From a virus, in the IMG/VR virus record IMGVR_UViG_3300027852_000038, positions 1 to 64,000 of that record: a stretch of 64,000 nucleotides of DNA; one strand, 5' to 3'. Shown here in pieces: positions 8,495 to 59,320 of this stretch (the first letter of the stretch is position 1; every line of letters starts with the position of its first letter). Position numbers and translations under genes: made by a program. Under the pieces are notes generated by a model. That model made no database searches. It saw nothing but the letters and a program-made list of their open reading frames with translations, and was not told the origin of the DNA.

Positions 8495-8526
8495 TATGAA
8501 TACCTCCAAAATATGTTTAGTTAAGA

Positions 8527-10542: not shown

Positions 10543-10967
10543 AGCTTATGAATCTCCCTCAACACCTCATTTAAACTTTTCCCTTCTTTCAACAAGCTGA
10601 CATAATCTCTTTCTTTGCCGTCTCCGATCTCTCTTGACTTATACGCTCCCACTGCTTCAATTATCTTATCTTTTTTGACATACTGAATTAAAATATTGAG
10701 CGGTTTTTTTTCCATTATCTGCTTGATATAATGATAAGATGTATACTGTTTTCTACATCCAAAACAATGTAATTTTTGAAATTCCGGATCATCAAAATAA
10801 ATAGCTGAAGGGACAGTATCCCGGTGAAATGGGCATGGCACTTTTTTACCTTTACCAGTAAACACTTCAATGTCAATTGCCCTGGAAACCACAAAAAATA
10901 GAGCATTAATGTCACTAGATATTATTTTAAGAGCCTCTTTATAAATCGTATCTCTAGAAGAAGTCAT
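10539..10967 (-). CDS. DnaG-type primase zinc-binding domain protein (CHC2), stand-alone
   Basis: 142 residues from the ATG at 10967. The CHC2 zinc finger is clear: C45-PF-H48, then PSAIYFDD, then C68-FG-C71. In DnaG this domain recognises the template trinucleotide. No TOPRIM catalytic domain follows. The matching catalytic half seems to be the separate gene at 54615-55289. The gene sits between the helicase and polymerase genes with overlaps at both ends. Confidence 0.85.
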   Translation of the reverse strand: MTSSRDTIYKEALKIISSDINALFFVVSRAIDIEVFTGKGKKVPCPFHRDTVPSAIYFDDPEFQKLHCFGCRKQYTSYHYIKQIMEKKPLNILIQYVKKDKIIEAVGAYKSREIGDGKERDYVSLLKEGKSLNEVLREIHKL

Positions 10968-41098: not shown

Positions 41099-42211
41099 TT
41101 ATACAGCCGCCGTAGTTAAAACAGCAAATCCCGCAGGAAGGCCAACAATCATTGCTTCCCGCTGAATTGCTCTCAAGTAGGTCTGGTCATTCTTGAACCC
41201 GATATGAGTAGACTGAGCCAGACTGATTTTTTTACGGTCTCCGATATACAGATATTTCAGATTTCCGAAACAAACAAAGGGAGTGGAAACCGCCGTGTCA
41301 GTCAGGGCCGGTAAGGAATCCGTCAATTCATACGGATAACCCCATATGGTGCCAGGCTGAAGTCCTGAAGGATTCTGATAAATATAATCACCGGCAGTGT
41401 CCTTCAACTTCCGAATGACGTTAAAAATTGTTCGATGCATATAAAACTTTGCACCCCTGAGCGCTCCGGCTTTCAAGGCGGTTATCATATCGCTGAGATG
41501 ATCGGCGGTGACATCACCAAAACCGGTCTCACCAGCACCCATCACCACCCCATTGGTTCCAGTAGCAAGCAGAATCCCATCAAACGGATCTGTTCCCCCG
41601 GAATCGCCTACAAATCCCACACGGTCTTCCTCTTCGGCCATTCCCTCGCCAAACAGAGTCGCTAAAAGGTTGGCTATTCCCAAAGAGCTATCTTCCAACA
41701 GCTCAGAGGAGGCCGGAACCATGGCAGCCATTTTCTTGGCGATAAAATTGACATTGCCCAGAACAGGCTTGGACTCGGTTATTGCAGCTTCTTCACCGAT
41801 CCAATAAACCGTAACCCCGGAAACAAGAGAAGGAATATCCATTTCATTTGTTCCCATCGGAATCAAAGTTGCACCCTTCCGAATGATCCCATACTCTTCG
41901 ATGATCCGAAGTAGCATTGCCTGAAATTCAGTGGGAACAAGATACCCTCCATCAGCATCAACCCCCTCAGTCATTCCCTTGGCGGTTAAATCTCTATGGA
42001 AAGCTCCCCGGCAAAAAGTCATAAAATCAGCGGCCTTCTCCTCATTCCTGAACGGGGTATGTAATACCAAACCCTCATATTCGGGAGCTTCAAGCTGCCG
42101 TTTCTGCAATTCTGCAATAACATCCTTCAACATCTTGATTTCATCCCGTTGCCCTTTGAACTCAGCAAGAGCAGCTTGTATTCCCTTCTTTAACTCTTCC
42201 AACATTTCCAT
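41099..42211 (-). CDS. Major capsid protein (HK97 fold)
   Basis: 370 residues from the ATG at 42211 (GGAGGGG site). An N-terminal coiled coil (residues ~1-45, the scaffold-like delta domain) precedes the HK97 body: GVDADGGYLVPTEFQAML, IRKGATLIPMG, ESKPVLGNVNFIAKKMAAMV, then SSELLEDSSLGIANLLATLF. The protease gene lies just upstream, as in HK97. Confidence 0.92.
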   Translation of the reverse strand: MEMLEELKKGIQAALAEFKGQRDEIKMLKDVIAELQKRQLEAPEYEGLVLHTPFRNEEKAADFMTFCRGAFHRDLTAKGMTEGVDADGGYLVPTEFQAMLLRIIEEYGIIRKGATLIPMGTNEMDIPSLVSGVTVYWIGEEAAITESKPVLGNVNFIAKKMAAMVPASSELLEDSSLGIANLLATLFGEGMAEEEDRVGFVGDSGGTDPFDGILLATGTNGVVMGAGETGFGDVTADHLSDMITALKAGALRGAKFYMHRTIFNVIRKLKDTAGDYIYQNPSGLQPGTIWGYPYELTDSLPALTDTAVSTPFVCFGNLKYLYIGDRKKISLAQSTHIGFKNDQTYLRAIQREAMIVGLPAGFAVLTTAAV

Positions 42212-42280
42212 AATTTTTCCCCTCCACAATAATAAAAAAATTGTATTATATACCTAAACAACACTCGGCATCACTCAACG

Positions 42281-43504
42281 TTACCCGCTGTTCTTCAGCA
42301 TTGAAAGAATCCCACCAAGATCCTCATCAGTGTAACCTAAATCTTGAACGGAAATGTCCTTCTCACCCATTTCCGACAAATACTGAACCCTTACCCTTAA
42401 AACAGAAAGTGACTCATCAACAGCTTTCATCAGAGTTGTTAAACCCTCCAACTTTCCGTCCAAAGCACTCAAGGCCTCTGAGGTCTCAACTTGTCCGGCA
42501 TCGTCCCCCGAACCCTCCTCCTCTGACGTTTCCGGCTCTACAAACTCTAGAACATGACGGTTCAGGTGGTCCAGACTTCCCTTCAAAATTTCCGAATCAG
42601 CGTCGGCCTCCAGCAATTCCTTAATACTCTCGATATGGCCGTCAACCGCTTCTTTTGAAACAAATACCTTTCCATCTTTCGTGAAGTGATGCATGTATTT
42701 GTAAGACGATTTGACTTTAGTTGCCGTCAAATCAACGGCAGCGTAAGCAAACCCGATATCTTCCCAATTCAAGGAATCTGCTTTAGAAAACTTACTTAAC
42801 AGCCGGTCAACCTCTAACTCAGGGTCAAAGGCACCAGTCTTAACTTCATTGGAGATGAAAGGAATGACCCCTTTTTCGATCTGGCCCATGTTAACTATTG
42901 CATCATTAACCAAGGCTTCAATGCCCTCTTGAGTTGATTTATAAAACCCACTCAAAACAGGACTAGGAACCACACCCTTCTCAGCCATTTTAGATCGAAT
43001 CAAAGCTTCAGGATTCGAGGGAACCGGAACTGGTGAAATTTCAAGCAGCTCCCAATCTACCACAATGCGTCGAGGCCGAGATTCATACTTAGTCAAATCC
43101 ACCTCAATGCCTTTTCCGGATAAAGTTTTTACTGCGATCTTATCCGGGGATTTTTCATCAACTTCGATTCTGGATTTGGGAATGAACCCAACAGAAAAGG
43201 CCCGCATGAATTCATGATCATACATGTAATCAAGAGTCTTACCATCTTCCGTATCAGCAAACGTGAAATCAAACACAACTTCGGTTGGAAAAACCTTTAC
43301 ATCCAAAACTTTGCCCACTGGAAAATCCCAATAATTATGAATGCCGAGCATTACCGGATTCTCCATGAAATTGTCCAACAGAACGCCTTCAGGAACCAAA
43401 ACTTCTAAATCTCGGTCTAAGGCCAGCGTAGAAGCAATAGCAGTCCTGATCTTTACACCACCCTTTTCACGGACACCTTTTTTTATTACGGCTTTAAATT
43501 CCAT
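42281..43504 (-). CDS. Prohead protease with C-terminal scaffold-like extension
   Basis: 407 residues from the ATG at 43504. HK97 prohead protease landmarks: TLALDRDLEVLVPEG, GIHNYWDFPVGKV (His), FMRAFSVGFIP (Ser) and EISPVPVPSNPEAL. The part after ~220 is acidic and helical (ETSEEEGSGDDAG) and may serve as a scaffold. Its ribosome site is inside the long hairpin at 43510-43577. Confidence 0.85.
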   Translation of the reverse strand: MEFKAVIKKGVREKGGVKIRTAIASTLALDRDLEVLVPEGVLLDNFMENPVMLGIHNYWDFPVGKVLDVKVFPTEVVFDFTFADTEDGKTLDYMYDHEFMRAFSVGFIPKSRIEVDEKSPDKIAVKTLSGKGIEVDLTKYESRPRRIVVDWELLEISPVPVPSNPEALIRSKMAEKGVVPSPVLSGFYKSTQEGIEALVNDAIVNMGQIEKGVIPFISNEVKTGAFDPELEVDRLLSKFSKADSLNWEDIGFAYAAVDLTATKVKSSYKYMHHFTKDGKVFVSKEAVDGHIESIKELLEADADSEILKGSLDHLNRHVLEFVEPETSEEEGSGDDAGQVETSEALSALDGKLEGLTTLMKAVDESLSVLRVRVQYLSEMGEKDISVQDLGYTDEDLGGILSMLKNSG

Positions 43505-43509
43505 TTTAT

Positions 43510-43577
43510 TTATCACCCCTCTTATATTATATATTTAAATATTTAATCTTATATTTAAATATATAGGGGAGTGATAA
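43510..43577 (-). promoter_or_regulatory. Long inverted repeat around the protease ribosome site
   Basis: Outer arms TTATCAC / GTGATAA (43510-43516, 43571-43577) extend over CCCT / AGGG, and an inner 14-bp arm pair (43529-43542 with 43551-43564) has an 8-nt loop. On the minus strand transcript the GAGGGG site of the protease gene is in the outer stem. Possibly translation control, or a terminator-like processing site after the portal. Confidence 0.6.
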
Positions 43578-43580
43578 AAT

Positions 43581-43778
43581 TTATTTATTTTTTGACATAA
43601 CCATGTCTTCCACTGCAAGATAATACAAACCCTCGGTCGGGATATCCGGATTTTCAGCCTTCAACCGGTCAATATTTGCAGCAAAATAAGGCCCAAAAGA
43701 TTTATGGAACCATTCTTTATGTGCCTGGTCCTCTTCTATTTCTTCATCTGTTATAGTCTCTCGATATACCGTTGGCAT
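43581..43778 (-). CDS. Small hypothetical protein
   Basis: 65 residues, acidic, helical. It lies between the portal fusion and the protease. No motif. Confidence 0.45.
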   Translation of the reverse strand: MPTVYRETITDEEIEEDQAHKEWFHKSFGPYFAANIDRLKAENPDIPTEGLYYLAVEDMVMSKNK

Positions 43779-43779
43779 T

Positions 43780-46700
43780 TTACATTCTCCCTTTTATTGG
43801 TTCAACAACTACCCACCTTATTGATGCCCTATCTACATGAGTGGAAATAATCTTGTAATAATTTTTTACAGCTATTTCTTGTTCATTCTCAAAAGGAAAC
43901 AAGTCAAAAGAAGTTATCTCCTTCTTGTTGTTTACAAGTTCATTTACATCTTGAACCGGATTAATTTTCTCAAAAGCCATATTATTATCTAAATACGTTT
44001 TCGCTTCCTTTTTTGGTATCTTGATCAAGACTTGATCTGTATCTTGAAAACGATAAGATGCAGGCCCAAAAGAACTATAACCCAAATCCATCTCTTTACC
44101 TACGATCCCCGCATCAAATTCTTTATTTGTTATATTATACTTACGTAAAGCCCCGCTTCTTCTCAAAACCAAATGATCTTTTATTTCACAAACCTCTGAT
44201 ACTGCCTTTGGAACCCTTTTTTTGAAAGTATCCCTTATATATTTATTGTCTAACTTCTTGTGTAATTCTGCCAATCTTTTTCCCTTGTGATAAAATTTTT
44301 TCATGGCTTGTGACTCAGTGTATAAATCCACCACATGCCTCAGATCAGGTGCCCCCCTCTCCATTGTAGGCATTAAACCCTGCCGAACTAAAAAAGGCGC
44401 ATCTTCCATCACCTCTTCTAAACATTTTAACTGACGGCCCGTTTTTACATTTCCAAAGTTTGAATCGCCTACCCAATTAAACACCTGTTTGACGTCCGTC
44501 CGTAATTTTTTCTTAACTTTCATTACCAATTCTTGATTATTTGCAGCAGACATCCCACCCGCTAGATTCTCTGTCATCTTTTCCCACGCAGCTAATTTTT
44601 TAGCAACGGCCTTTTTAACTTTTATTTCATCCAACCTTTTTGCCGGTATTTCATCCATTAAAAAGAAAACCTGTCTGCTTGGTCCGGCCTTTTTATTTAA
44701 TTCAATCATGCGTTTAATCAAGTCCGAAGCCTTCTTTATCTCAACAGCGGAACCCGTCTTGAGTAAATCGGCTTTTATTTTTGCCAAAACACTATCCTGA
44801 ATATGGGGTTGAAACTTTGTAAAATCCTCCACAAACTTACTTGACAAAGCTTCCATATCGCCTTTTACATCAACGTCTTTTGGTTTAATCGGTTCCATCT
44901 TACCAGGAACCTTTGACAAGGCTGTTGGAATTGTCGTGCATCTACAGTTAGCAGTTTGATCTACTGACCCGTATGGATCATGAGGATACCGACAACCCGT
45001 GTGCGGGAACTTTTCACCGATACGAACAGGATCAGCGGCGGCCTGTTTAACATGAGGTTCTCTAACTAAACCATCACCTGCCGAAACCCACTTATGTTCA
45101 ACCACGCCCTTTGCCTGGTGTCCCATAAACCTTCCAGAATTATACGCAGTTCCAGCAATATCACGAGCCCAAGACAAGGCTTTTTCTTGCGTCAATTGAG
45201 TAACCTTAGTAAACAAGTGTTTCCGTATTTGGTCCACTGGCATACCTACGTCAACCGCTGCCTTGCCCAACTTAGATATTCGATTTAAAGTTCTTAAGGG
45301 CAGGCTTTCTGCCTTTAATGCCAATGTGCTAATAGATCCACCAACAGTCTCGATCTGTTCCGGGGTCAAATATTGAGTCAAAACAGTTGACCCCTTGTAG
45401 TCAGCAAACAAATCCTTGGCAGTGAAAGCCCCCATCTTGTCAATCTTATCTAACTCAAGGAAAGCTTTACTGATTCCAAGATTGACTGTTTCCCTTAATT
45501 TTGGCAATGCTCCATCATTCCACACCCACATCCAAAAATCTAACTCAATGTTAAAAACACCCGTGGTTTTAAGATCACTTAAAAGTCTGTCAACAACCTG
45601 TCTACCCCAAGTCCTTAGAAACGTTCCCCACCTAATAGCCAATTTCTCAAGTATGACATTTTCATACAAAGTTGCATACTCTCTTCCAAACCTGGACTTA
45701 AAGTCTATCAATGAACCATTCTGAAACTTAGAAACGCAACCTTCTGAATTATTAACATCCTCTGAATTATTAACATCCTCTGGAGGATCTTCTGGAGGAT
45801 CTTCTGGTGGATCCTCTTGTGGTTTTTCGTCTCCGTCCCCCGCTAAAGCAGGATTGCCCAGAATAACGGCGATTTCTGATTTTTTATACCCGGCCGATTG
45901 ATAATTTTTAACAGCCGTTGACTCATTAACTGTATCAACGTATCGTCCTCTTACCTCTGAAATATTATAATCAATGGTATAGCCAGGAAAAAAAGTTTCA
46001 ACAAGCCTTGTCTGGAACAGATCAGAAATATTAGTTAACTTTGGGGTCATTGTGGATTCCCAAAAAATTTTCATCTGGGCATTCGTGTTGGCATAGTTTG
46101 CATAACGGAAGATGCCAACCATGGCCGGGGGAACCCCATAAGTGGCACAGATCTCTTCCCTTGTGTTCTGCTTACCTGTTGCAAAGTCGGCATCTTTAGC
46201 AGATGTATGATGTATTTCTGCATCTACATCTTTACCGCCCACAATAAGCAAATTGTCATTATTTCCCCACCCACCGAAACCAGAAATAAGCCTTTTCTTA
46301 AATTCCCTCATTTGAGCAGCGTCAAGTTGCGTTGGTAATTTGACAACGACTGTCGGCCTGACGCCCTGCTTAAAAAAGTTTATATTCCATTTAGAAATAT
46401 AAAAATCTTCTTCTATTGAAAAAGCCGCCCGGGTATATGGAGCTTCCCCGGTGAATGCGTTAAGGGAAAACCCGGTCCTTATGAATATAAACTGCTCCAA
46501 CGGATATTTCTTTGACCCGGCCGCCCAATATTTTAAATTCCCCTTGCTGTCTAATACAGGAGTGAGGGAATAACCATCAATCAGATGCAGTTCTGTAGGC
46601 ACCCCTTCCTTGAACTTGTCCAGGCCTAAACCACAACCCCCAAAGTAAGACAAGTTTAAGAGAATAAAATGTGTTAAATCTGACAGTGTCCTTTTATTCT

Positions 46701-46911
46701 TTAAACCTCCCCGCAACAACTCTAGTAATGGATCGCCAGCACTCACCTCTGTATCATTCTTTGTTATGATAAGAGGCACCCCCGCCCCTGCTTCCGATAT
46801 CCTGGTTGAACAAATATAAATCCAACAAACCTTGCGCCACGCTTCCGCAAGAACAAAGGATTTATTTGAATTTGAACCACCACCACCAAAAATATTGCTA
46901 AAAATACTCAT
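43780..46911 (-). CDS. Portal-MuF-ADP-ribosyltransferase fusion protein
   Basis: 1043 residues, more than twice a normal portal. Residues ~1-360 are an HK97-type portal (WRKVCWIYICSTRISEAGAG, then GVRPTVVVKLPTQLDAAQMR). A Pro/Glu repeat linker follows (~365-392: PPEDPPEDPPEDVNNSEDVN). Residues ~560-660 match the Mu gpF minor head domain (HKWVSAGDGLVREPHVKQAA ... NCRCTTIP). The C-terminus (907-1043) reads as an R-S-E ADP-ribosyltransferase: LVLRRSG, then GYSSFG (944-949), IKIPKKEAKTYLD and ENEQEIAV with E1010-Q-E1012. The enzyme part may be injected with the DNA. Confidence 0.8.
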   Translation of the reverse strand: MSIFSNIFGGGGSNSNKSFVLAEAWRKVCWIYICSTRISEAGAGVPLIITKNDTEVSAGDPLLELLRGGLKNKRTLSDLTHFILLNLSYFGGCGLGLDKFKEGVPTELHLIDGYSLTPVLDSKGNLKYWAAGSKKYPLEQFIFIRTGFSLNAFTGEAPYTRAAFSIEEDFYISKWNINFFKQGVRPTVVVKLPTQLDAAQMREFKKRLISGFGGWGNNDNLLIVGGKDVDAEIHHTSAKDADFATGKQNTREEICATYGVPPAMVGIFRYANYANTNAQMKIFWESTMTPKLTNISDLFQTRLVETFFPGYTIDYNISEVRGRYVDTVNESTAVKNYQSAGYKKSEIAVILGNPALAGDGDEKPQEDPPEDPPEDPPEDVNNSEDVNNSEGCVSKFQNGSLIDFKSRFGREYATLYENVILEKLAIRWGTFLRTWGRQVVDRLLSDLKTTGVFNIELDFWMWVWNDGALPKLRETVNLGISKAFLELDKIDKMGAFTAKDLFADYKGSTVLTQYLTPEQIETVGGSISTLALKAESLPLRTLNRISKLGKAAVDVGMPVDQIRKHLFTKVTQLTQEKALSWARDIAGTAYNSGRFMGHQAKGVVEHKWVSAGDGLVREPHVKQAAADPVRIGEKFPHTGCRYPHDPYGSVDQTANCRCTTIPTALSKVPGKMEPIKPKDVDVKGDMEALSSKFVEDFTKFQPHIQDSVLAKIKADLLKTGSAVEIKKASDLIKRMIELNKKAGPSRQVFFLMDEIPAKRLDEIKVKKAVAKKLAAWEKMTENLAGGMSAANNQELVMKVKKKLRTDVKQVFNWVGDSNFGNVKTGRQLKCLEEVMEDAPFLVRQGLMPTMERGAPDLRHVVDLYTESQAMKKFYHKGKRLAELHKKLDNKYIRDTFKKRVPKAVSEVCEIKDHLVLRRSGALRKYNITNKEFDAGIVGKEMDLGYSSFGPASYRFQDTDQVLIKIPKKEAKTYLDNNMAFEKINPVQDVNELVNNKKEITSFDLFPFENEQEIAVKNYYKIISTHVDRASIRWVVVEPIKGRM

Positions 46912-49509
46912 CTATTCCACCTCATCCCATAAACTTTCATTTAAGACTTGATCTGCAATAGTTTCATCCTCTCCACCAGTTGAGCCTATGAACATCGTGG
47001 GTAAATAATTTTGTCCATAATTGAAGACATTGATCACAGAACCAACTACCGCATCACTTAAATCTTTAGACTGTCCAGGCCTGTGGTCAATCTTCCTTTT
47101 CCGCTTGTCCCAAACTAAATTTAAAAGCTCTCTCTTAAATATAGAGTTAGCCGGACAAATATATTTATCTGCTATAATCAGTCCTTTTAAAAATAAATAT
47201 TCTTCGTCGGTCCTGTCAACAGAAACCAAACCACAGTTAATGCCCTCACTTTCTAGATATTGTAAGCTGCTTCTACTTTGAAAACTGTCTAAACTCACAA
47301 AGGCTATGTTATAACCTAAATCTCGCAAGTGAACAATAAACTCAGCCACCCTTAAAATGGGAATTTCACCCACCGAAGGGGGAGAAAGAGACAGCATCCA
47401 TTCTGTTGCCACATGAGGGTCTAAACCTCCCCGCATAGAGCAACCAATGTGAACAGAACAAGCTAAACCGGTTCGATCTGTTGTTATTGACTGATCTATA
47501 TGAATACATCTGGGAACTTCCCTGTCATAATTCGGCGTATCAATAAAAAAATCCTCAATTCTATCACTTCTTTTGGTGGATATTGAAATGATATCCTTGA
47601 CAAACATTCTTTTCAACATACTGGTGGTTGCTTTGTTTAAGGATCTCTCTGTTACAAACCCCACAGAACCCCTTAAACTTTTCCCAAGTATATCCTGAAT
47701 ACTGGCAACTATATCATCTAGAAAATCATCAAGAAAATCAACCGGGACCGCCTCCAATTCAAGCCTATCAGCAAACTGATCAAACAATTCAATTGACCCG
47801 GCCTTTTTATCATATTCAATTGACAGACCCTCCAACAACTCCACTAAGTCGTCCCGATTCTGAATAACTTTGGGGTCAAACATCTCTGAGCCCAAATACA
47901 CATGAAATTTGTCATCTGCTGAAAACTTAGCTGCGTTCACTTTCAGACCTTCAACAATGGTGACAAATCCCTTTCCACTACTATTCAATTTTTGAATTCG
48001 CTCTTCAACAAAAGGGGACTGATAGGAGGGGGAGGATATTAAAAGAGAAAGTCCGTTATCTTCTCCCTTAATATTAAAACGGGTTTTTCTCCTCCGCAGG
48101 GTAGCTTCATAAAGAATTTTTGATTTACTTAAAACCTCAACATCTTTAGGACTGACCACACTTTTATAGAAATCCCCTTCATCAAGGAAAGTTCCAAATA
48201 AATCCATACCAATTTGATGGCCTACATCAGAACCATAGGTGACAGTCATTGAAGGATAAACCAGGCTTGAAATTACATTTTTATCACGAATAAAATACTT
48301 ATTGAAATATGGTATTGTGTCAGCAATTGCCATTATCCTACCATACCCCGTCCTTTTCGCTTGGGTCAAAGAAACTGAAAAATATACAAACCAAAGTATA
48401 GTTGATCGCATAAGATTATAAATACCAGGAATAGGACTGAAACAAGACAGTTCATAAATTTTCCGGAACAGTGCAAACGCCGCCGCCGTTGTATTATGAT
48501 TAATGACTCCCCCGGCATAAAATTGGTGTGTAACAGGAACAGACAAATCATAAACATTTACAGATTTCTTGATGATCTCAACCTTACATTCAGTGAAAAC
48601 AAACCTTGTTTTGGGAGCCTGAGTTGGATTTGTGAGCCGGTTAAATTCAACCTCTGTAAACTCAAGACCAAAATAATTTATATAACCCTTCATTGATTTA
48701 ACTTTAAACCGGGGGTAAATAGACAAAATATTTGACAACTCCTGAATAGATTTAATCAATCCTTTTGATTGGGAAGCAATCTCATAATGACGCTGACCCG
48801 GTCTAAGAAGCCCAAGTAAAAATCCTCTAATAAAATCTTTATTGCTTTTAAAAAACCACTCAGATAGTTTTTCCATCTCCAGACTTTCACCAAGTGACAA
48901 AGTCCCTGTGGCATGACCAAACTCTCCCTCTGTTAAATCTTTAAACTCCTCTGGCCGAGTGGTCCTGTTGTTAAATAAAACAGGAACCTGCGTATCCAGG
49001 GCCACTCTTACACCGTTTTTTAGTTCTCCTAGTTTCTTAAGCTGAACCCCGTCAGGAGTAAGGACTTTAATTGGATGATCTTTTGTTCCCGATAAATCTA
49101 TCCTATCACTGTAAACCCTTACAACTTCCTGTTGGGTAGAATCTTTATAAAAGTAATCTGAACTGTGTGTGTCATCAACTTTGACCTCTAATGGAGTAAA
49201 CCCATCAACTTCAGAAGGGGCAAGATCTTCTATTTTGATATACCCCTCCGAGGTCATAACACGGTTATTTCCAGTAATACACTTGCCAGAACCCAGACTT
49301 CCAAACAATACCCACTCTGGTTGACCTGAATGTATAAATTCGGTTATTTCTTGCTTCCAAAAATCATAAAGCAACAAGCCATCAGGTCCACAATAAAAGC
49401 CGTTTTCCAGCCACTTTTCTATCGGGACAATCTCTCTTATTTGTTCAGTTTTAGTAGTGGCATGTATATCTGCAATACTCTGAAATATTTCAATTAATTT
49501 TGGTTGCAT
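46912..49509 (-). CDS. Terminase large subunit with an in-frame intein
   Basis: 865 residues from the ATG at 49509; the TTG to 49527 is less likely. The ATPase part has Walker A GSLGSGK (70-76), split by an intein from TTAA, and Walker B GTFLDEGDF. The nuclease is RNase H-like: HIDQSITTDRTG (first Asp), AFVSLDSFQSR and a late KDLSDAVVGS. It packages DNA into the prohead. Start overlaps the small gene by 20 bp. Confidence 0.93.
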   Translation of the reverse strand: MQPKLIEIFQSIADIHATTKTEQIREIVPIEKWLENGFYCGPDGLLLYDFWKQEITEFIHSGQPEWVLFGSLGSGKCITGNNRVMTSEGYIKIEDLAPSEVDGFTPLEVKVDDTHSSDYFYKDSTQQEVVRVYSDRIDLSGTKDHPIKVLTPDGVQLKKLGELKNGVRVALDTQVPVLFNNRTTRPEEFKDLTEGEFGHATGTLSLGESLEMEKLSEWFFKSNKDFIRGFLLGLLRPGQRHYEIASQSKGLIKSIQELSNILSIYPRFKVKSMKGYINYFGLEFTEVEFNRLTNPTQAPKTRFVFTECKVEIIKKSVNVYDLSVPVTHQFYAGGVINHNTTAAAFALFRKIYELSCFSPIPGIYNLMRSTILWFVYFSVSLTQAKRTGYGRIMAIADTIPYFNKYFIRDKNVISSLVYPSMTVTYGSDVGHQIGMDLFGTFLDEGDFYKSVVSPKDVEVLSKSKILYEATLRRRKTRFNIKGEDNGLSLLISSPSYQSPFVEERIQKLNSSGKGFVTIVEGLKVNAAKFSADDKFHVYLGSEMFDPKVIQNRDDLVELLEGLSIEYDKKAGSIELFDQFADRLELEAVPVDFLDDFLDDIVASIQDILGKSLRGSVGFVTERSLNKATTSMLKRMFVKDIISISTKRSDRIEDFFIDTPNYDREVPRCIHIDQSITTDRTGLACSVHIGCSMRGGLDPHVATEWMLSLSPPSVGEIPILRVAEFIVHLRDLGYNIAFVSLDSFQSRSSLQYLESEGINCGLVSVDRTDEEYLFLKGLIIADKYICPANSIFKRELLNLVWDKRKRKIDHRPGQSKDLSDAVVGSVINVFNYGQNYLPTMFIGSTGGEDETIADQVLNESLWDEVE
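48493..49281 (-). other. Intein in the terminase (263 aa), Walker A insertion
   Basis: Starts CITGNNRV, ends NHN before Thr; block F is VNVYDLSVPV. It reads along the helicase intein: VKV, SS, GT..HP, VALD, FNN.T.R, EGEFGH. The endonuclease part is reduced to FLLGLLRPGQ with no catalytic Asp. Confidence 0.9.
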
Positions 49510-49882
49510 TTCCTGCCTTCTTTTCAACTTTAGAAATCTCTTTAGAGAGTAGAGTGAAATCTTCCGGGGACATATTTGTCATTTTATAAACCATGGCATC
49601 GATTTCTTCTGAACCCTCTAAACCCGAAGGCTCCATTTGAATGGCCACCTTACGGACAAACTCAATCAAGTTGACCACTGCCTTGGATATAACTTGAACA
49701 TCTTCTCTCAACTCATTCAACTGTATATCTGAAAATTGAACACCCGAGCTAAAATCCCATTGACCTAAAATAGTAGCTTCAGCATCCTCTAAAAATTTTA
49801 AATGGCACTCAATCCTTGCCTTACTCTTCTCAACAATGTTAAAAAGAAATTCTTCTACAGTCCGTCTATTTAATTTTGCCAT
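49490..49882 (-). CDS. Probable terminase small subunit
   Basis: 130 residues, mostly helical, directly upstream of the large terminase and overlapping it by 20 bp. The role is inferred from this place only. The first 15 residues (MAKLNRRTVEEFLFN) are shared with the decayed nuclease copy. An obvious helix-turn-helix is not seen. Confidence 0.4.
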   Translation of the reverse strand: MAKLNRRTVEEFLFNIVEKSKARIECHLKFLEDAEATILGQWDFSSGVQFSDIQLNELREDVQVISKAVVNLIEFVRKVAIQMEPSGLEGSEEIDAMVYKMTNMSPEDFTLLSKEISKVEKKAGNATKIN

Positions 49883-49947: not shown

Positions 49948-50586
49948 TTATCCATAATTGAAAACACCTATAACCGAACCAACAACAGCATCGGTTAGAT
50001 CTTTAGACTGTCCAGGTCTGTGGTCAATTTTCTTTTTTTGCTTGTCCCAAACTAAATTTAACAGCTCTCTCTTAAATATAGAGTTAGCCGGACAAATATA
50101 TTTACCTGCAAGAACCAATCCCTTTAAAAATAAGTATTCTTCATCAGTTCTATCGACAGAAACCAAACCACAGTTAATGCCCTCGCTTTCTAAATATTGT
50201 AAGCTTGCCCTCGACTGATATGAATCTAGACTAACAAAGGCTATATTATACCCTAAATCTCGCAAGTGAACAATAAACTCAGCCACCCTTAAAATAGGAA
50301 TTTCCCCCACCGAAGGAGGAGCGAGAGACAACATCCATTCAGTTGCCACATATGAGTTTGATCCTCCCATCAATGAACAAGCTAATCCAGTTCGGCTGAT
50401 ATGAATACACCTGGGAGCTTTCCTGTCATAATTCGGAGCATCAATGAAAAAATCCTCAATTCCATCATTTCTTTTGGTAGAAATTGAAATGATATCCCCG
50501 ACAAACATTCTTTTCAACATACTGGTTGGCGGTTTAGCCTTGTTAAAAAGAAATTCTTCTACAGTCCGTCTATTTAATTTTGCCAT
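49948..50586 (-). pseudogene. Decayed duplicate of the terminase nuclease domain
   Basis: 212 residues. The first 15 residues copy the small terminase start; the rest is the terminase C-terminal region from TSMLKRMF to FNYG at high identity. Two in-frame 18-bp losses remove the first catalytic Asp (HIDQSITTDRTG became HISRTG) and six residues after ACS. The stop TAA corresponds to CAA (Gln) in the parent gene, and homology goes on for ~20 bp after it. It looks like a dead copy, although frames have been kept. Confidence 0.85.
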
Positions 50587-50612
50587 TTCTTTACTCCCCT
50601 TAACAAATCATA
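50541..50612. repeat. 72-bp perfect direct repeat, copy 2
   Basis: Identical to 49837-49908. It provides the start region of the decayed nuclease copy and marks the duplication edge. Confidence 0.95.
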
Positions 50613-51311
50613 TGTTTGCTGTTGACTTTTTGTCTTTAACTCGACTTCCTCCCCCTCTAACTTCTTTCTTATATCACTAATAGACTCCATTACATTAGCC
50701 AAGGTTATATCCTTCACAAACCGTATGTTCTTCCCGCTGAATAAATAAAACACATAAACTAGATCAGCTCCCAAGCGATCAAAAAGAAGCAACAAAGTGA
50801 AATAATCTAGCTTATAGACCCGGCTTAAATAAGCCGCTAGAATTTCAAAGTCTAAACTGTCTCCCTTACTATGGGAATTTTTCTCTTCAAAATCATACTT
50901 CTTGGCCCTTTGCACGGCCTCTCCTGAAGGTGGGTCAATGACATCACTTGCTTTTACCAAGGAATCGACAGAATTGACTGTATTATTAATCAAATCAGCC
51001 TTTAGAACCTCCCCTTCAGGAGTAGACAATAATGCAGCATCAAGGTGATAAGAGTCATCAAGTTTCCTGCCTGCTCTATAAATATCGGTTGATATAGAAT
51101 TTCTAACAACAGTGAAAATGAAAGTCAAAAAATTTTGAGATTCATCATAATAATCAAGAGCTTCATACACCCGGACAACCGCCCTGCTTCTTACGTCGTC
51201 ATCGTGGCGAAAAAGATACCGAACAACCAGATAATCCACAAATTTCAACAACTCGGTTCCAAACTCTTCTGTTTCAGACCCGCCATTAAAATACAATTCG
51301 TTTAATTTCAT
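50574..51311 (-). CDS. Sigma factor-like protein
   Basis: 245 residues. The segment ~38-85 (VRSRAVVRVYEALDYYDESQ, NFLTFIFTVVRNSISTDIYR) follows sigma70 region 2, with the usual F-x-T-x-I-x-x-x-V-R-N. A second helical part near 150-230 may be region 4-like. It overlaps the clamp loader stop (ATGA). It could direct late transcription in the manner of T4 gp55, which depends on the clamp. Inference. Confidence 0.55.
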   Translation of the reverse strand: MKLNELYFNGGSETEEFGTELLKFVDYLVVRYLFRHDDDVRSRAVVRVYEALDYYDESQNFLTFIFTVVRNSISTDIYRAGRKLDDSYHLDAALLSTPEGEVLKADLINNTVNSVDSLVKASDVIDPPSGEAVQRAKKYDFEEKNSHSKGDSLDFEILAAYLSRVYKLDYFTLLLLFDRLGADLVYVFYLFSGKNIRFVKDITLANVMESISDIRKKLEGEEVELKTKSQQQTYDLLRGVKKWQN

Positions 51312-53539
51312 TTAGTAAACCTTGATTTGCTTGAACTCACTTGTCCAATCATTAAAGATTTAATGGAATATAAAAACAAACTCCAATCGGTAGTGTTCTT
51401 TAAATACCCACTCATTTTTAAATAATACTTAATCAAGTCAAATCTGAAACTATTAGAAACATCACCCGTGAACTCTTGTTCGGCCAAGTCCCGGATAAAC
51501 TTGTCAAAGTCTTGCCGGATAATGTGAACCGGTTCTGAAAGTATCCGATCTATAACCAGTTTGGGAGATTTACCAGCCTTTAACAATTGAATAATGGCCC
51601 TTATGTCATTATCTAAAACACCCACGCACTTTGTAAATTCATCACCCATTAATACGAATAATTCTAACCCTTGAAGAGAATCTCTAAAATGACCCCCGGC
51701 CCTTCTCACTATAATATCCAAAGCCTCTTTTGGTAAATCAATACCCTCTCTTTCAGAAACAGCTTTTACAAGGGAACAAACCTCTTCATTGGTGCCAAAC
51801 GGATATCTAAGAACTAAGGATCTTGAAACTATTGTATCAATCAGTCCCCCGATATCTGTTGTTGAAAATATATAAAAAATCTTTGCAGTTGAATCTTCCA
51901 AGATCTTAAGCAGTGCTGACTGTGCCTGATTACTCACTAAATGGCTTTCATCAAGGACCGCCACCCGCCAGCCTGCCAAAGACGAATGAGCTAAAATATC
52001 CCTCATTTGCCTGATTGTATTTACATTCCCCACAACAGCAGAATCAAATTCATGATACTGAGCCCCGCCTTCCAAAGAAGCCTTACACCCGGCACACTCA
52101 TTGCAGCAATCACCATTTCTTTTTTCACAGTTGACAGCCCGGGCAAATATCCTCGCAGCAGTTGTGTTATGCACCAAAATAGAATTAGCCACAAACATAT
52201 GCGATTTACTGTTAGTTAAATCGTAAACTTCACCCCTTCCCTTTTCTATTCCTTTAACTTTAGCAAAAAATAGAGAATTTGGCAAGTCCGGGAACCTACC
52301 CCTCAATTCAGGAATCAAATTCTCCAGTTTTATTTTGACCTCTTTAAAAGATCCATAGCTTATTTCTGGTTTTTCAAGGAAATAACGATTAATTTCTATA
52401 AGTGCCTTCCGCATCCGTCTGGTTAACTTTACCCCGGCCAATAATTTTTTAATGAACAAGACACCCCCGGGAATTACATTATCATACCTTATACCACCAA
52501 CAGTCAAAATATATCGTTTACTTTGGGTGTTACCTTCTCGCATTTTACATACAATCCCTTGACTGTTGTGCATGTGAAAGACAAACAAAGCAAGATCTTC
52601 AAAATTAGTTCCATATTCCATACGTCCTAAAGGGCTGTTTTGAGTCATCTTAAGCAGGCCCCTGATAAAAGCGCACTGATTAGACCAAGTTGTATTCCAA
52701 ATAATATCAGGAACCTTCTTGCCCTCCACCCGTCTATTAAAAACTCCTAAGTATTTCAACCAGCTGTTAAAAGCTACATCATTCGGAACAATGTCAATAT
52801 TATAAAAGCCCTCATGGTTGCTGTCTGCTGATCTTTTCGAGGATACCTTTAATTCCATGTCAAGGTAATCTTGTATCCAATCCAAAAGGTCCAGGTCTGA
52901 AGAATGAAACGGAGATAGTCCATATTGCAATCCGTCCCCTATCAACAGACCAAGGAAAAAGGCCTGGGAATTATCCAAAGCTTGTCGAGCCTTGGCTTCT
53001 AAACACTTCTTTTTAGTCTCAATTGGATCCTTTGACGGGACCCACACCGTGCTCCCCAATAGATTCCATGGAACTGGCGAAATGTCCTGTATTACAGTGT
53101 CCCCTCTCTTTAGAAGGCTTAACTCTTTGAATGTCAGGTCGAATTTGTCTTTATCCCAACTAAGAACAGGATGCTCCAAGGTTCCCCCTAACTTGTTCCC
53201 TTCTTCAGTCTCAAAAAAGATTAAATCCCGCTCTCCACCATAGAAAAAAGCGGACACCTCTTCAAGTTTTCCGTGAACCAATACTTTTTCCTTGGCCTTA
53301 TAAAAAGCTTGTTCAATTAACGGTCCCCCGGGTGATAGATCCTCAATCCTTCTAAGACCTTTTTCACTCTTAATCAGTGAACCTTTAACCACACACTTTC
53401 CTTGACCATGAGGACCACACAATATAATTGATCGTGGTGCCCGTTCTGGGTTCTTAGCTATCCGATTTAAAACAGAAACAGCGGGAATATTACCCGCCAT
53501 TTCTGAAAAAGTTTGGGGCCTGTAATCTCTTGTTAACAT
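51308..53539 (-). CDS. DnaX-like clamp loader subunit with an in-frame intein
   Basis: 743 residues, ATG with GGAGGT. Without the intein it is ~333 residues. Walker A is CGPHGQGK, then TTAA. Zinc cysteines follow (CCNECAGC), then Walker B VAVLDESHLV, sensor 1 FSTTD, the SRC-like IVSRSL and sensor 2 GGHFRDSLQG. It loads the sliding clamp on primed DNA. Confidence 0.9.
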   Translation of the reverse strand: MLTRDYRPQTFSEMAGNIPAVSVLNRIAKNPERAPRSIILCGPHGQGKCVVKGSLIKSEKGLRRIEDLSPGGPLIEQAFYKAKEKVLVHGKLEEVSAFFYGGERDLIFFETEEGNKLGGTLEHPVLSWDKDKFDLTFKELSLLKRGDTVIQDISPVPWNLLGSTVWVPSKDPIETKKKCLEAKARQALDNSQAFFLGLLIGDGLQYGLSPFHSSDLDLLDWIQDYLDMELKVSSKRSADSNHEGFYNIDIVPNDVAFNSWLKYLGVFNRRVEGKKVPDIIWNTTWSNQCAFIRGLLKMTQNSPLGRMEYGTNFEDLALFVFHMHNSQGIVCKMREGNTQSKRYILTVGGIRYDNVIPGGVLFIKKLLAGVKLTRRMRKALIEINRYFLEKPEISYGSFKEVKIKLENLIPELRGRFPDLPNSLFFAKVKGIEKGRGEVYDLTNSKSHMFVANSILVHNTTAARIFARAVNCEKRNGDCCNECAGCKASLEGGAQYHEFDSAVVGNVNTIRQMRDILAHSSLAGWRVAVLDESHLVSNQAQSALLKILEDSTAKIFYIFSTTDIGGLIDTIVSRSLVLRYPFGTNEEVCSLVKAVSEREGIDLPKEALDIIVRRAGGHFRDSLQGLELFVLMGDEFTKCVGVLDNDIRAIIQLLKAGKSPKLVIDRILSEPVHIIRQDFDKFIRDLAEQEFTGDVSNSFRFDLIKYYLKMSGYLKNTTDWSLFLYSIKSLMIGQVSSSKSRFTK
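52166..53395 (-). other. Intein in the clamp loader (410 aa), Walker A insertion
   Basis: Starts CVVKGSLIKS, ends VHN before Thr; block F is RGEVYDLTN. The first LAGLIDADG motif FFLGLLIGDG is intact; the second (FIRGLLKMTQNS) has lost its Asp. Longer than the other two Walker A inteins and less like them. Confidence 0.9.
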
Positions 53540-55291: not shown

Positions 55292-58200
55292 TTAACCCCT
55301 CACAGTGAATAAACCTGCCAAGCAAGCCGGACAAAAATCAGCCTTTTTGTCAGCAGGTATCATTTTACCAGTAGAATTTTGACACCCTGGTGTTTTGCAT
55401 TTCCCTTCTCCAATATACACCCCTATCTTACGTTCAAGAGAAAAAGAAAGATACATTCTTTTGTAAGTTGTCTTAAACCAGCCTGCTAAACAAGCCCATG
55501 GATTATAATCATAAGGCAAAGCAAAACAGCCTTGACTCCCTGTAGGTGAAGAACAAACTGAAAAGCCCAACACCTCCTCAACAAGCGGTTTTTCCTTATA
55601 CCCCCCCTTCCCACACCAATCAGGGAAAAAAGCATAACCACGATCTAACCTACCTAGCACTTTATTTCGTATATCAAAGGCTGAAAGACTTGAACTAAAC
55701 TTCCAGATTAACCACAGATCCTTATAAGCTTTTGGAACAAAAGGGAATAACTCAACTTTTAAAACCTTTGCCCCTGTTAAATCACCATTCATTTTTTCAA
55801 TTACTGGAGCAAAGTCTACGGGCTCCAAAGTTTTTAATAACGACATGTCAAAAGATCCAAACCCACTCCATCTATCGGGGGACCTACGGACAGTAAGTCT
55901 TTGTTCAATGTCTCTACCCATGCCATAATAATTGCCCGCAACTTCTGGACAATAGTTGTTAAGTAAACCTCCGATCCGGTGTGAAAGAATCCTTTTTAAC
56001 CTGAAACTTGCAACGGGGTCACTACTTATCATGTAACTAACACGAACACTTGAAATGGGCCTTGCTTTAAACTTTGCCGTGGGTACTTCATCAGGGGAAG
56101 CGTCAACTCTGAGTTCCCTGTTTATCATTTTTGTTTTTTTGAACTCTTTATCTATGCAATTTCCGCAACCATAACACTTAGGATTAAGATTTGAATCAGT
56201 CCGTAAACAATACTCAGTCTTTTTTTTACCGACAGATTCAACCAGGGCACGAAGTTTAAACTCTTTCATGGCTGAAAACATAGAGCTGAAATTCAAATCT
56301 TCAAAAGATCTTTCTTCGGAACAGTAGTCTCTTATCTGCTGATCTTCTATTATACCCACAGACCCCATACATTTCCTGATAAGCTGCCTTCCTTTATCCC
56401 CTGTTACGCTTATTGGTTTACCCTCATTATCAGTTCTTCTCACATAGTCTAAAAGAATTGATGAAAGCAGCCTGCCAAAATCAAGTATTGTCTGTTGAAA
56501 TGCAAACCCGGTGCCCCCGTTAAACTTGATATTCGCTCGCTTAAAACCATGAACACTTTCAATTAACTTGTTCATTCTGGGTGAGGGAAAAAGCTGTTTT
56601 TCCATTGACTTTCGAGGAAGCCAAGCAACCGGCGTCATTTGATATTGAATTAATGCAGTGCAAGAAATCAATACAAAAGTTTTGACTCCGTATTTATCCC
56701 TCATTGCCATTATTTCTTCTAACAAATCAATAAACTCCTGAACGTCCTCTTCCTCTTCAAACCCACTAGAAACAATGTTCATTTTCAGGTTTCCGAGTCT
56801 CTGTTCAAAAACATTTTGACAACACCTCAAAATCTGATCCTTCGATAAATTTTTATTCAAGTAGTCATTTCTGATTCGCTCAGAGATACCTTCGAGGGCA
56901 ATGGATACCTTGTTAAACCCCGCTAATTTACTGAACTTGAGATAATCTTTATTATCAGCTAAAGTGTCAGCCCGCATTGTAAAAATACCAGCACTGGGAG
57001 CCTTGGCGATTGTTTGTGTGTAAAGCCTGACCATTTGAGAATGAAAATTGGAGTTATAAGAGAAATAAGAAATCATATTGCATGCGGTAACTTTGTTGAC
57101 ATCATCAATACAGGCCACCACATGACTATAGTCTTTTTCACGCCATGGCCCCGCCACTAACCCTTCATGACACTGGTGAGTAATCACGGAATCAAAAGCA
57201 CACCAATGAGACATTCGAGTGGTCAAGTCCCACATCTCTTCCTTTTGGCCGGTATACTTGATGCTTTCCACTCTGGACACAACCACTTCACACCTTAAAA
57301 ATTTCTTTTGTAAACTATTAAGCTCACATCCCTCTAATTCTGCCAACAAAAATTTAACCCTTGTTGCATACTTCCTGCCAGCATACAAATCACCCAAGCC
57401 ATACTTTTGAGCTTCTTCTCTATTTGGATAAGTTGCCCTGACTTCATCTACTAAATCACCAACTGGGAAAAGTTCTGTTGAAATATCCAGGAATTGATGT
57501 CCTGCAAATTGCTTTGTGTTATTACCTATCAAATCAACAAAGTCATTTTTTGATCTGACCCCTTTAATGCAAAGGCTAACAGTTGCCCGCCTTTTGTTTA
57601 CCCCTATTCCCTCACATTTATCAATATACCGCCGCACCTTCTTTTTATTCTTGATTGAATCAATGCCGAGTAACCACAACAATTGTTGGACCTGGGAAAC
57701 CATTTCAGATGACACCGTAGTAAGGCATGGAGTCTTACCAATCATCCAACCTTCAGCTTGAAATATACCTGCCAGGTAAGGTGCAATTATATCAAGAGGT
57801 GAGTGAAAAATCATTTCCGGAATAGTGGCAAATTCTCTTTTTTCCTTAATATTCAATACATCAATCAAGGTAGCATTGAAAGGATCAGACAAACATGTTG
57901 AATCTAGAATTAAACCACCCACCCCAACTTCAGCAGCATCCCTGCCAAAAACTTCATTTAGAGCCATACAAAGCTTAGTCCGATCATCAGATTCACAAGC
58001 ACAAGACAAGAGGTCAATATTTTCATAATAGTAGCCACCCCCTTTGAGATACCCAAAGGCATAAGCAAACTTTTTGTCGAACCAATACCCACCAGGCAAC
58101 TTTTGATATGGTGGATTATGAACTTCAGACCCCAGTCTGATCAGAACCCGATCACCCACATGTAAATTGGTGGTAGTTGTCTCCTCTAATTGACAAGATT

Positions 58201-59305
58201 CAGGATTTAAAATCATAAACTTATGATGCTTATCAACTGGTAGAATGTTACCCCGATCAAACCCGACTTTGATTAACTCCCTCTCTCCCTGACAAAAAAC
58301 CTTTTCGATCAAATCCGTATGAACCGCATCTGTTGGAACAGACTTTGCCTCAGATAAATCTTCTATTTTTAACAAGCCATCGGGAGTTCTTACCCGGGTT
58401 CCCTTGGCCACGGCAAAATAGCAACTCCCATACCCGGAACAGCCATGGGAAATCAATAATTGACCTAGTCCAGCTAACTCATTTCGTCTTAATAAAACGG
58501 GATCCTGGAAAATAGGCCCTTTAGTGTCAAAGTCTCTGTGGAAATTTACCTTTTTGGGGACCCAATCAAACTTCGGTTCTATCGACTTAATCTTATGACC
58601 TCCAGGTTCAATATCAAAATCATAGCCATCAGGATAATAAAGGCTGTCATATTTTTCAACAAATTGCCTCAAAACAGCCATTTTATTGGCTTTAATACCG
58701 CCCTTGGTTTCCACATTGAATTTAATAAAGTCTTGTATTATCAGAGGTAAACGGCCCTCACCTTCGCCATAATAACACAAGTCAAGTATTGACCCTCCAG
58801 GCAATCCATTTAAAATATCTATTTGATCAATAACATTACCTCCACCAAACACAAATGGAGAACTGGGATCTTCTACCCGCTCTTTATGAGTCATAGGAAC
58901 AGCACCGTTTGACCCAAGCATCATTAAAAACGCCCTGATTGTTTCTTCATGAACGGAAAAAGAAAAAGAAACAATATCAAACTCATCTAATGACTTATAA
59001 GAACACCACCCAAAAGAAGAGGGCAATTTTTCTTTTTTCATTTCTTTTATGTCTTGAGGGTCTAAGACACACATGAAATCAATGTAAACAGGCTGTTCGG
59101 CTGTCTGGCCTTCCCTGATTAACATCTTCAGTTGTGTTATGGTTGATGCTTTGCCCCTATCCTTAAAGCCACTGAGAAAAACCAAACAAATCTTTAACTT
59201 AGCATCTTCCCACTTAGGATTCCCCATGTTAAGATCAAACTCACCGACACCCGGAGCGAAGTCCACTCTAGGCAATACCTTGACAATACCTTCTTTCAAG
59301 TCCAT
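55292..59305 (-). CDS. Radical SAM protein with an in-frame intein
   Basis: 1337 residues from the ATG at 59305 (GAGGAG). The N-terminal third has FVFGGGNVIDQ and YYGEGEG, the pattern of B12-binding-type radical SAM proteins. The [4Fe-4S] Cys set is GCSGYGSCYF, then C after the intein (C-x5-C-x2-C). After it are SIALEGISE, a Cys group (CYGCGNC) and a C-terminal zinc-like set (CKTPGC...CPAC). Substrate unknown. It sits between the primase half and the clamp. Confidence 0.75.
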   Translation of the reverse strand: MDLKEGIVKVLPRVDFAPGVGEFDLNMGNPKWEDAKLKICLVFLSGFKDRGKASTITQLKMLIREGQTAEQPVYIDFMCVLDPQDIKEMKKEKLPSSFGWCSYKSLDEFDIVSFSFSVHEETIRAFLMMLGSNGAVPMTHKERVEDPSSPFVFGGGNVIDQIDILNGLPGGSILDLCYYGEGEGRLPLIIQDFIKFNVETKGGIKANKMAVLRQFVEKYDSLYYPDGYDFDIEPGGHKIKSIEPKFDWVPKKVNFHRDFDTKGPIFQDPVLLRRNELAGLGQLLISHGCSGYGSCYFAVAKGTRVRTPDGLLKIEDLSEAKSVPTDAVHTDLIEKVFCQGERELIKVGFDRGNILPVDKHHKFMILNPESCQLEETTTTNLHVGDRVLIRLGSEVHNPPYQKLPGGYWFDKKFAYAFGYLKGGGYYYENIDLLSCACESDDRTKLCMALNEVFGRDAAEVGVGGLILDSTCLSDPFNATLIDVLNIKEKREFATIPEMIFHSPLDIIAPYLAGIFQAEGWMIGKTPCLTTVSSEMVSQVQQLLWLLGIDSIKNKKKVRRYIDKCEGIGVNKRRATVSLCIKGVRSKNDFVDLIGNNTKQFAGHQFLDISTELFPVGDLVDEVRATYPNREEAQKYGLGDLYAGRKYATRVKFLLAELEGCELNSLQKKFLRCEVVVSRVESIKYTGQKEEMWDLTTRMSHWCAFDSVITHQCHEGLVAGPWREKDYSHVVACIDDVNKVTACNMISYFSYNSNFHSQMVRLYTQTIAKAPSAGIFTMRADTLADNKDYLKFSKLAGFNKVSIALEGISERIRNDYLNKNLSKDQILRCCQNVFEQRLGNLKMNIVSSGFEEEEDVQEFIDLLEEIMAMRDKYGVKTFVLISCTALIQYQMTPVAWLPRKSMEKQLFPSPRMNKLIESVHGFKRANIKFNGGTGFAFQQTILDFGRLLSSILLDYVRRTDNEGKPISVTGDKGRQLIRKCMGSVGIIEDQQIRDYCSEERSFEDLNFSSMFSAMKEFKLRALVESVGKKKTEYCLRTDSNLNPKCYGCGNCIDKEFKKTKMINRELRVDASPDEVPTAKFKARPISSVRVSYMISSDPVASFRLKRILSHRIGGLLNNYCPEVAGNYYGMGRDIEQRLTVRRSPDRWSGFGSFDMSLLKTLEPVDFAPVIEKMNGDLTGAKVLKVELFPFVPKAYKDLWLIWKFSSSLSAFDIRNKVLGRLDRGYAFFPDWCGKGGYKEKPLVEEVLGFSVCSSPTGSQGCFALPYDYNPWACLAGWFKTTYKRMYLSFSLERKIGVYIGEGKCKTPGCQNSTGKMIPADKKADFCPACLAGLFTVRG
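57173..58414 (-). other. Intein in the radical SAM protein (414 aa), Ala1 and Gln-terminal
   Basis: It starts AVAKGTRVRTPDGLLKIEDL, a block A with Ala in place of Cys/Ser, and ends THQ before Cys. Block B has VDKHH. Endonuclease motifs: YLKGGGYYY (Asp lost) and LAGIFQAEGW (Glu kept). It splits the radical SAM Cys cluster between the second and third Cys. Confidence 0.88.
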
Positions 59306-59320
59306 CACTTCTCCTCAATA

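Follow-up and report, generated by a model that had tools for sequence, protein, structure and literature searches.

Several ADP-ribosyltransferases (ARTs) of the R-S-E type are known in phages. Examples are Alt, ModA and ModB of T4, of which Alt is packaged and injected. These are stand-alone proteins that lack portal and MuF domains. Temperate phages encode MuF polymorphic toxins (PMC5576092), Bxa among them (PMC11699363), in which a MuF domain is followed by a C-terminal effector; ART is one of the known effector types (PMC5576092). Both head-packaged ARTs and MuF toxins are on record (PMC5576092, PMC9503650, PMC7302621, PMC11699363). The surveys by Iyer et al. report ARTs fused to MuF and to head-associated or portal proteins (PMC9503650; PMC5512222), and they describe PBECR, 2H, Nudix and InPase domains joined to a portal or to MuF (PMC5512222, PMC9503650). 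In Microbacterium phages, two of the three modules considered below are joined in each case: MuF and a VIP2-type ART in Percival and Goodman, and portal and MuF in clusters EA and EB; none of the fusions described there has three modules in one chain (PMC7302621). In SPP1, the portal protein binds the MuF homologue gp7 and directs it into the procapsid interior (PMC6316719).

The gene described here was found in an IMG/VR virus record. The record is linear and 77,775 bp long, and the window analysed is its first 64,000 nucleotides. The gene is present in a single copy (43780–46911, minus strand; features of this phage given below lie on the same strand). It is an uninterrupted ORF that encodes 1043 amino acids, with an ATG at 46911 preceded by GAGGTGG, a stop codon at 43780–43782 and no internal stops. 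In order, the product contains a portal domain, a linker, a MuF domain, a spacer and an ART-like domain. The initial annotation gave no strand and had read portal, MuF and ART as one polypeptide; that portal and MuF form a single chain is certain, as the ORF is uninterrupted and both domains have Pfam and PHROG matches. Translation might also start internally, at codon 861; this at first attractive possibility was set aside because such sites are frequent by chance (1.5 expected per 1043 codons in this genome).

As in the MuF polymorphic toxins, MuF is followed here by a candidate C-terminal effector, and a small gene lies directly downstream. In those toxins, however, MuF does not stand behind a portal, whereas here MuF itself is fused behind one. 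The view that such a fusion is unusual had to be narrowed: portal–MuF fusions are common, MuF–ART fusions have been published, and head or portal fusions to ARTs are reported (PMC9503650, PMC7302621, PMC5576092). ARTs fused to MuF or to head and portal proteins form a published class, which the present fusion joins; within this known class, the points of interest are the triple fusion and a clade that swaps its C-termini.

Portal and MuF modules

The portal domain (residues 31–341; 45889–46821) matches PF04860 at 5.7e-39 in a Pfam search, PHROGs 12 and 2662, and portal chains of the PDB, with a best value of 3e-7 in a sequence search. PHROG 2662, labelled 'portal', aligns over residues 21–666 at 1.3e-49 and is an existing portal–MuF family. 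Judged by its sequence, the fusion protein is a member, with an HK97-type portal followed by MuF in one ORF. The Pro-Glu linker noted initially between the two domains is present: it can be read as EDPPEDPPEDPPED at about residues 366–380 (45772–45816), a Pro/Glu/Asp repeat within an acidic stretch that spans residues 346–400 (pI 4.1). The MuF domain (about residues 530–663; 44923–45324) is matched by PHROG 2468 at residues 530–662 (2.4e-18) and, below the cut-off of the family, by PF04233 at residues 551–661 (2.5e-5). When the fusion protein was aligned with six other MuF domains, residues W, D, R, H and NCRC were invariant. A MuF-only alignment was also tried as a scanning tool, and was dropped because it was too variable.

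About 35 portal–MuF fusion proteins were found among the IMG/VR and phage loci gathered, and the same fusion is present in Streptomyces phages mu1/6 and OnionKnight and in Gordonia phages GMA6 and Hanem. By itself, a portal–MuF fusion is common and already known. Nearly all of the gathered proteins end no more than 60 residues past MuF, and the distinctive feature of the protein described here is a C-terminal extension of 380 residues. The spacer (residues 667–860; 44332–44913; pI 9.6) is matched by no family; like the MuF domain before it and the C-terminal domain after it, it is basic (pI 9.4–9.6 for the three).

GMA6 and Hanem (Bendigovirus) permit a direct comparison. Both encode an ART close to the portal–MuF fusion, but as a separate gene that matches PF03496 (3.2e-12), whereas the ART-like domain of the present phage is part of the fusion chain. 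In GMA6 (L006, 4417–6506) and Hanem (L110, 5009–7089), a gene with paired HxTL-type motifs lies directly before the ART gene and just after portal–MuF. This gene is 2H phosphoesterase-like by motif only, and is annotated as 'RNA ligase' in Hanem.

The C-terminal domain, its counterparts and the downstream gene

Residues 861–1043 (43783–44331) are probably an ART of the R-S-E type. The three motifs named in the initial annotation are found at the C-terminus in the order given: RRSG (917–920), YSSFG (945–949) and EQE (1010–1012), the latter shared with T4 ModA and ModB. R918 (44158–44160) is the putative NAD-binding arginine, S947 (44071–44073) the putative first serine of the STS motif, and E1010-Q1011-E1012 (43876–43884) the putative catalytic ExE motif. 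In all 16 unsupervised MAFFT alignments, made with a diverse set of 42 phage ARTs mostly from IMG/VR, R918, S947, E1010 and E1012 fell in the four catalytic columns. Controls matched all four columns in 0 of 240 natural C-termini and 2 of 240 shuffles, and the block score of the domain was reached by 3 of 3000 shuffles and 0 of 2400 natural segments; the p-values for register and block score are, however, flattered because the protein had been picked for its motifs. ModA and ModB, when scored leave-one-out, bracket the block score of the domain. When the ORFs of the genome were scanned by block score with loose spacing, however, the domain ranked only third of 186. The STS motif reads S-F-G, with F and G at positions 2 and 3, and the PRG that follows ExE is missing.

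Profile searches were silent. No significant ART match to the domain was obtained in Pfam, NCBIfam or PDB sequence searches, nor was there significant similarity to Alt, ModA or ModB. PF03496 gave no match at E-values up to 10 (Alt itself, 5.8e-36): compared with the VIP2 type of Percival and Goodman, the domain is too divergent for this family. HMMs made from 4–7 phage ARTs, from ModA and ModB, or from the 42 ARTs scored the domain no better than shuffles. As a control, Pfam was found to give no ART match for ModA and ModB either, which are genuine ARTs; silence of the profiles is therefore weak evidence. Homologues of the domain were found neither in IMG/VR nor in GTDB genomes or GenBank phages. 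Two candidate matches were discarded. T5-like Sir2 proteins, the best phage match (E 0.4), align outside any ART logic. A Smith-Waterman match to L137 (top z 5.7) was left unused because its score falls (z 2.9 with standard BLAST scoring) and EQE is out of register.

Structure prediction had been suggested initially as a check, and the outcome was mixed. A single-sequence AlphaFold model of residues 783–1043 reached a pLDDT of 38 and was uninformative, and its PDB matches (none better than 0.7) were considered noise. With an alignment of 37 viral ARTs, the model of residues 858–1043 reached a pLDDT of 65.6 and a pTM of 0.58, and the PDB matches listed for it were all ARTs (best 1.3e-4, TM about 0.44). 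As the alignment was made of ARTs alone, the model indicates compatibility with the ART fold and is not independent proof. Taken as a whole, the proposed ART identity is probable: it is favoured by the motifs, by their register and by a compatible ART-alignment-driven model, and is weakened by the silence of the profiles and the degenerate STS motif.

The closest portal relatives found fall into several kinds according to their C-terminus. L027/L240, L241/L242 and L249 are portal–MuF proteins with no extension; L239 shares the MuF-like tail seen in L027 when judged by eye, but no profile detects it. In L245 and L246 the portal has a short tail, and MuF is missing (the L246 phage is also L013, L022 and L258). 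In L243 (5911–8940, 1009 aa) and L244 (4228–7170, 980 aa), portal–MuF is followed by about 350 residues with HEYGH or HELGH motifs. These two C-termini are homologous to each other (8e-21) and not to the ART-like domain, and because no Pfam peptidase family matches them they are called zinc-protease-like after their motif. Both IMG/VR proteins resemble the one described here in portal clade (about 32% identity), architecture, length and the presence of a small downstream ORF; they differ in that a zinc-protease motif is found at the C-terminus, instead of ART motifs.

Among more distant proteins, L193 is a MuF–ART fusion and L154 a MuF2–ART fusion, and in L080 (3744–5663), which has no MuF match, a DNA/RNA non-specific endonuclease (PF13930, 5.7e-25) is fused directly to the portal. 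No other portal–MuF–ART chain was found in the GenBank phages or IMG/VR loci searched, and portal domains were absent from a set of 75 ART-bearing sequences, many of which are redundant. A portal–MuF part that stays constant while its C-termini are exchanged (ART-like, HExxH or none) is what would be expected of an effector carrier. MuF plus a variable C-terminus, the combination that defines MuF toxins, is found across the relatives, and by extension the C-terminus described here may be an effector.

Additional observations concern individual loci. Extensions of 288 residues after a portal (L084, 3–1937) and of 188 residues after portal–MuF (L061, 3188–5893) look CHAP/NlpC-type and ParB-type, respectively, by eye, and Pfam recognises neither. 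In L181 (6134–7183) the ART is ahead of MuF, the reverse of the usual MuF–ART arrangement, and the portal of L012, another relative, seems to be interrupted by an intein. A portal search in GTDB genomes as a clue to the host was uninformative, as it retrieved mainly alphaproteobacterial loci, many of them from Rickettsiales.

An acidic ORF of 65 aa (43581–43778; pI 4.6), with GGGAG upstream, begins 1 nt beyond the end of the fusion gene and is a candidate immunity or antitoxin gene. A search for homologues of its product found none. Small ORFs (106 and 110 aa) likewise come directly after the L243 and L244 fusions and precede the next large gene. Overall, a small ORF directly downstream is present in 3 of 4 extended fusions, the present one included, and in 3 of 33 unextended relatives, a difference (p = 0.0096) that was tested post hoc. 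Small genes between portal and protease are also found in the effector-free phages mu1/6 and OnionKnight. The arrangement resembles that of MuF toxin–immunity loci (PMC5576092, PMC11699363), but an immunity role for the 65-aa ORF is only a lead because it has no homologues and small genes occur in effector-free phages too.

Proposed mechanism and alternatives

On balance, we are inclined to view the fusion as a carrier-effector head protein, made of a portal–MuF carrier and an exchangeable C-terminal effector that is here most likely a divergent R-S-E ART. The N-terminal portal domain would build a ring at the packaging vertex, and MuF, tethered by the acidic Pro/Glu linker, would sit on the inner side of that ring. 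R918, S947 and E1010/E1012 would be the catalytic residues of the effector, and the ExE pattern predicts arginine-type mono-ADP-ribosylation if the domain is active. Portal rings are made of 12 subunits, from which would follow the dozen or so ART copies that the initial annotation proposed for the vertex. Binding of the SPP1 type, between portal and gp7, would here be replaced by the covalent link, so that as many as 12 effector domains might lie in the interior of the head. Since a portal is normally left behind in the capsid at ejection, effector delivery requires a release step. The effector would probably be cut off the portal by the prohead protease, a candidate for this task, or be freed otherwise, and would enter the next host together with the DNA. 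RNA polymerase and translation, both mentioned initially as targets, are guesses by analogy with T4.

A bolder and less probable idea is that a polymorphic toxin/effector system is loaded on the portal ring itself: a single phage clade would keep portal–MuF constant, swap the C-terminal enzyme (ART-like, zinc-protease-like or none) together with a cognate small gene, and so place up to 12 covalent copies at the exit gate. If so, the portal would set the amount of enzyme at the DNA exit, which would be the same in every virion; the MuF protein of SPP1 is reportedly present in few copies per head. The question would then be how an enzyme fixed to a ring that is retained by the capsid gets to its target. 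The phage described here, L243/L244 and the unextended relatives make up a small comparative set in which the effector is swapped and the structural part is kept.

The observations on the C-terminal domain admit more than one explanation. One is that it is not an ART but an orphan structural domain, or an effector of another sort, with R, S and ExE in order by chance. The complete silence of the profiles, the third rank in the block scan, the degenerate STS motif and the occupation of the same slot by other domains in relatives are all compatible with this explanation; we nevertheless consider it rather improbable, as the match of four catalytic columns in every alignment is rare in controls and genuine ARTs such as ModA and ModB escape Pfam too. 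Alternatively, the domain might have an ART fold and not be delivered at all, either because it acts late in the producing cell or because it is an inactive binder of DNA or protein inside the head. Retention of the portal ring by the capsid would fit, the change from S-T-S to S-F-G may reflect a loss of activity, and the basic nature of the region from MuF onwards is that of a DNA-binding internal protein. However, the arginine, the first serine and both glutamates of ExE are retained, and the location of MuF and the swapping of effectors suggest head-carried delivery in related systems (PMC5576092, PMC9503650). An undelivered ART fold thus seems quite unlikely.

A further explanation concerns the use of the effector rather than its nature: a portal-borne polymorphic toxin, with the 65-aa ORF as its immunity gene, might serve in bacterial competition or in the lysis-lysogeny decision and not in a takeover of the Alt kind. 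Swapped C-termini on a constant portal–MuF part would be expected of such a toxin, the MuF toxins on record are accompanied by neighbouring immunity genes (PMC11699363), and a small ORF directly follows the fusion here and in L243 and L244 and is found in few unextended relatives. Yet this association is post hoc and involves few loci, mu1/6 and OnionKnight have small genes at the same place without an effector, and the 65-aa protein lacks homologues. Moreover, MuF toxins are reported almost only from temperate phages (PMC5576092), and no integrase was detected among the ORFs scanned, a subset of all ORFs of this linear record. We therefore give this explanation tentative standing only, and retain the carrier-effector head protein as our working interpretation.

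Other genes of the phage

Genes for head formation and packaging surround the fusion gene and share its strand. The terminase large subunit gene (46912–49527; PHROG 17415 at 8.6e-12, and PHROG 2) is interrupted by an intein (splicing domain, 6.3e-5). On the other side lie the genes for the S78-type prohead protease (42281–43516; PHROG 80 'head maturation protease' at 1.6e-10, Pfam S78 at only 0.015) and the major capsid protein (41099–42229; PF05065, 6.8e-55). Between the 65-aa ORF and the protease gene, a strong hairpin (43509–43578; -25.3 kcal/mol, z -4.8) pairs UCACUCCCC with GAGGGGUGA, the latter just upstream of the protease start, and could mask the ribosome-binding site of the protease gene.

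Intein-splicing matches, some of them below Pfam cut-offs, were detected in four minus-strand genes, three of which also have LAGLIDADG matches: besides the terminase gene, these encode a DnaB-like helicase (10954–13191), a clamp loader (51308–53539) and a radical-SAM protein (55292–59308). Two adjacent ORFs (6785–8509 and 8527–10542) are family-A DNA polymerase-like, both matching PHROG 17, and a third family-A polymerase ORF lies beyond the window, at about 74580–75695 of the record. A protein with sigma-70 region 2 (50574–51311; 2e-5) is possibly a late-transcription factor of the phage's own.
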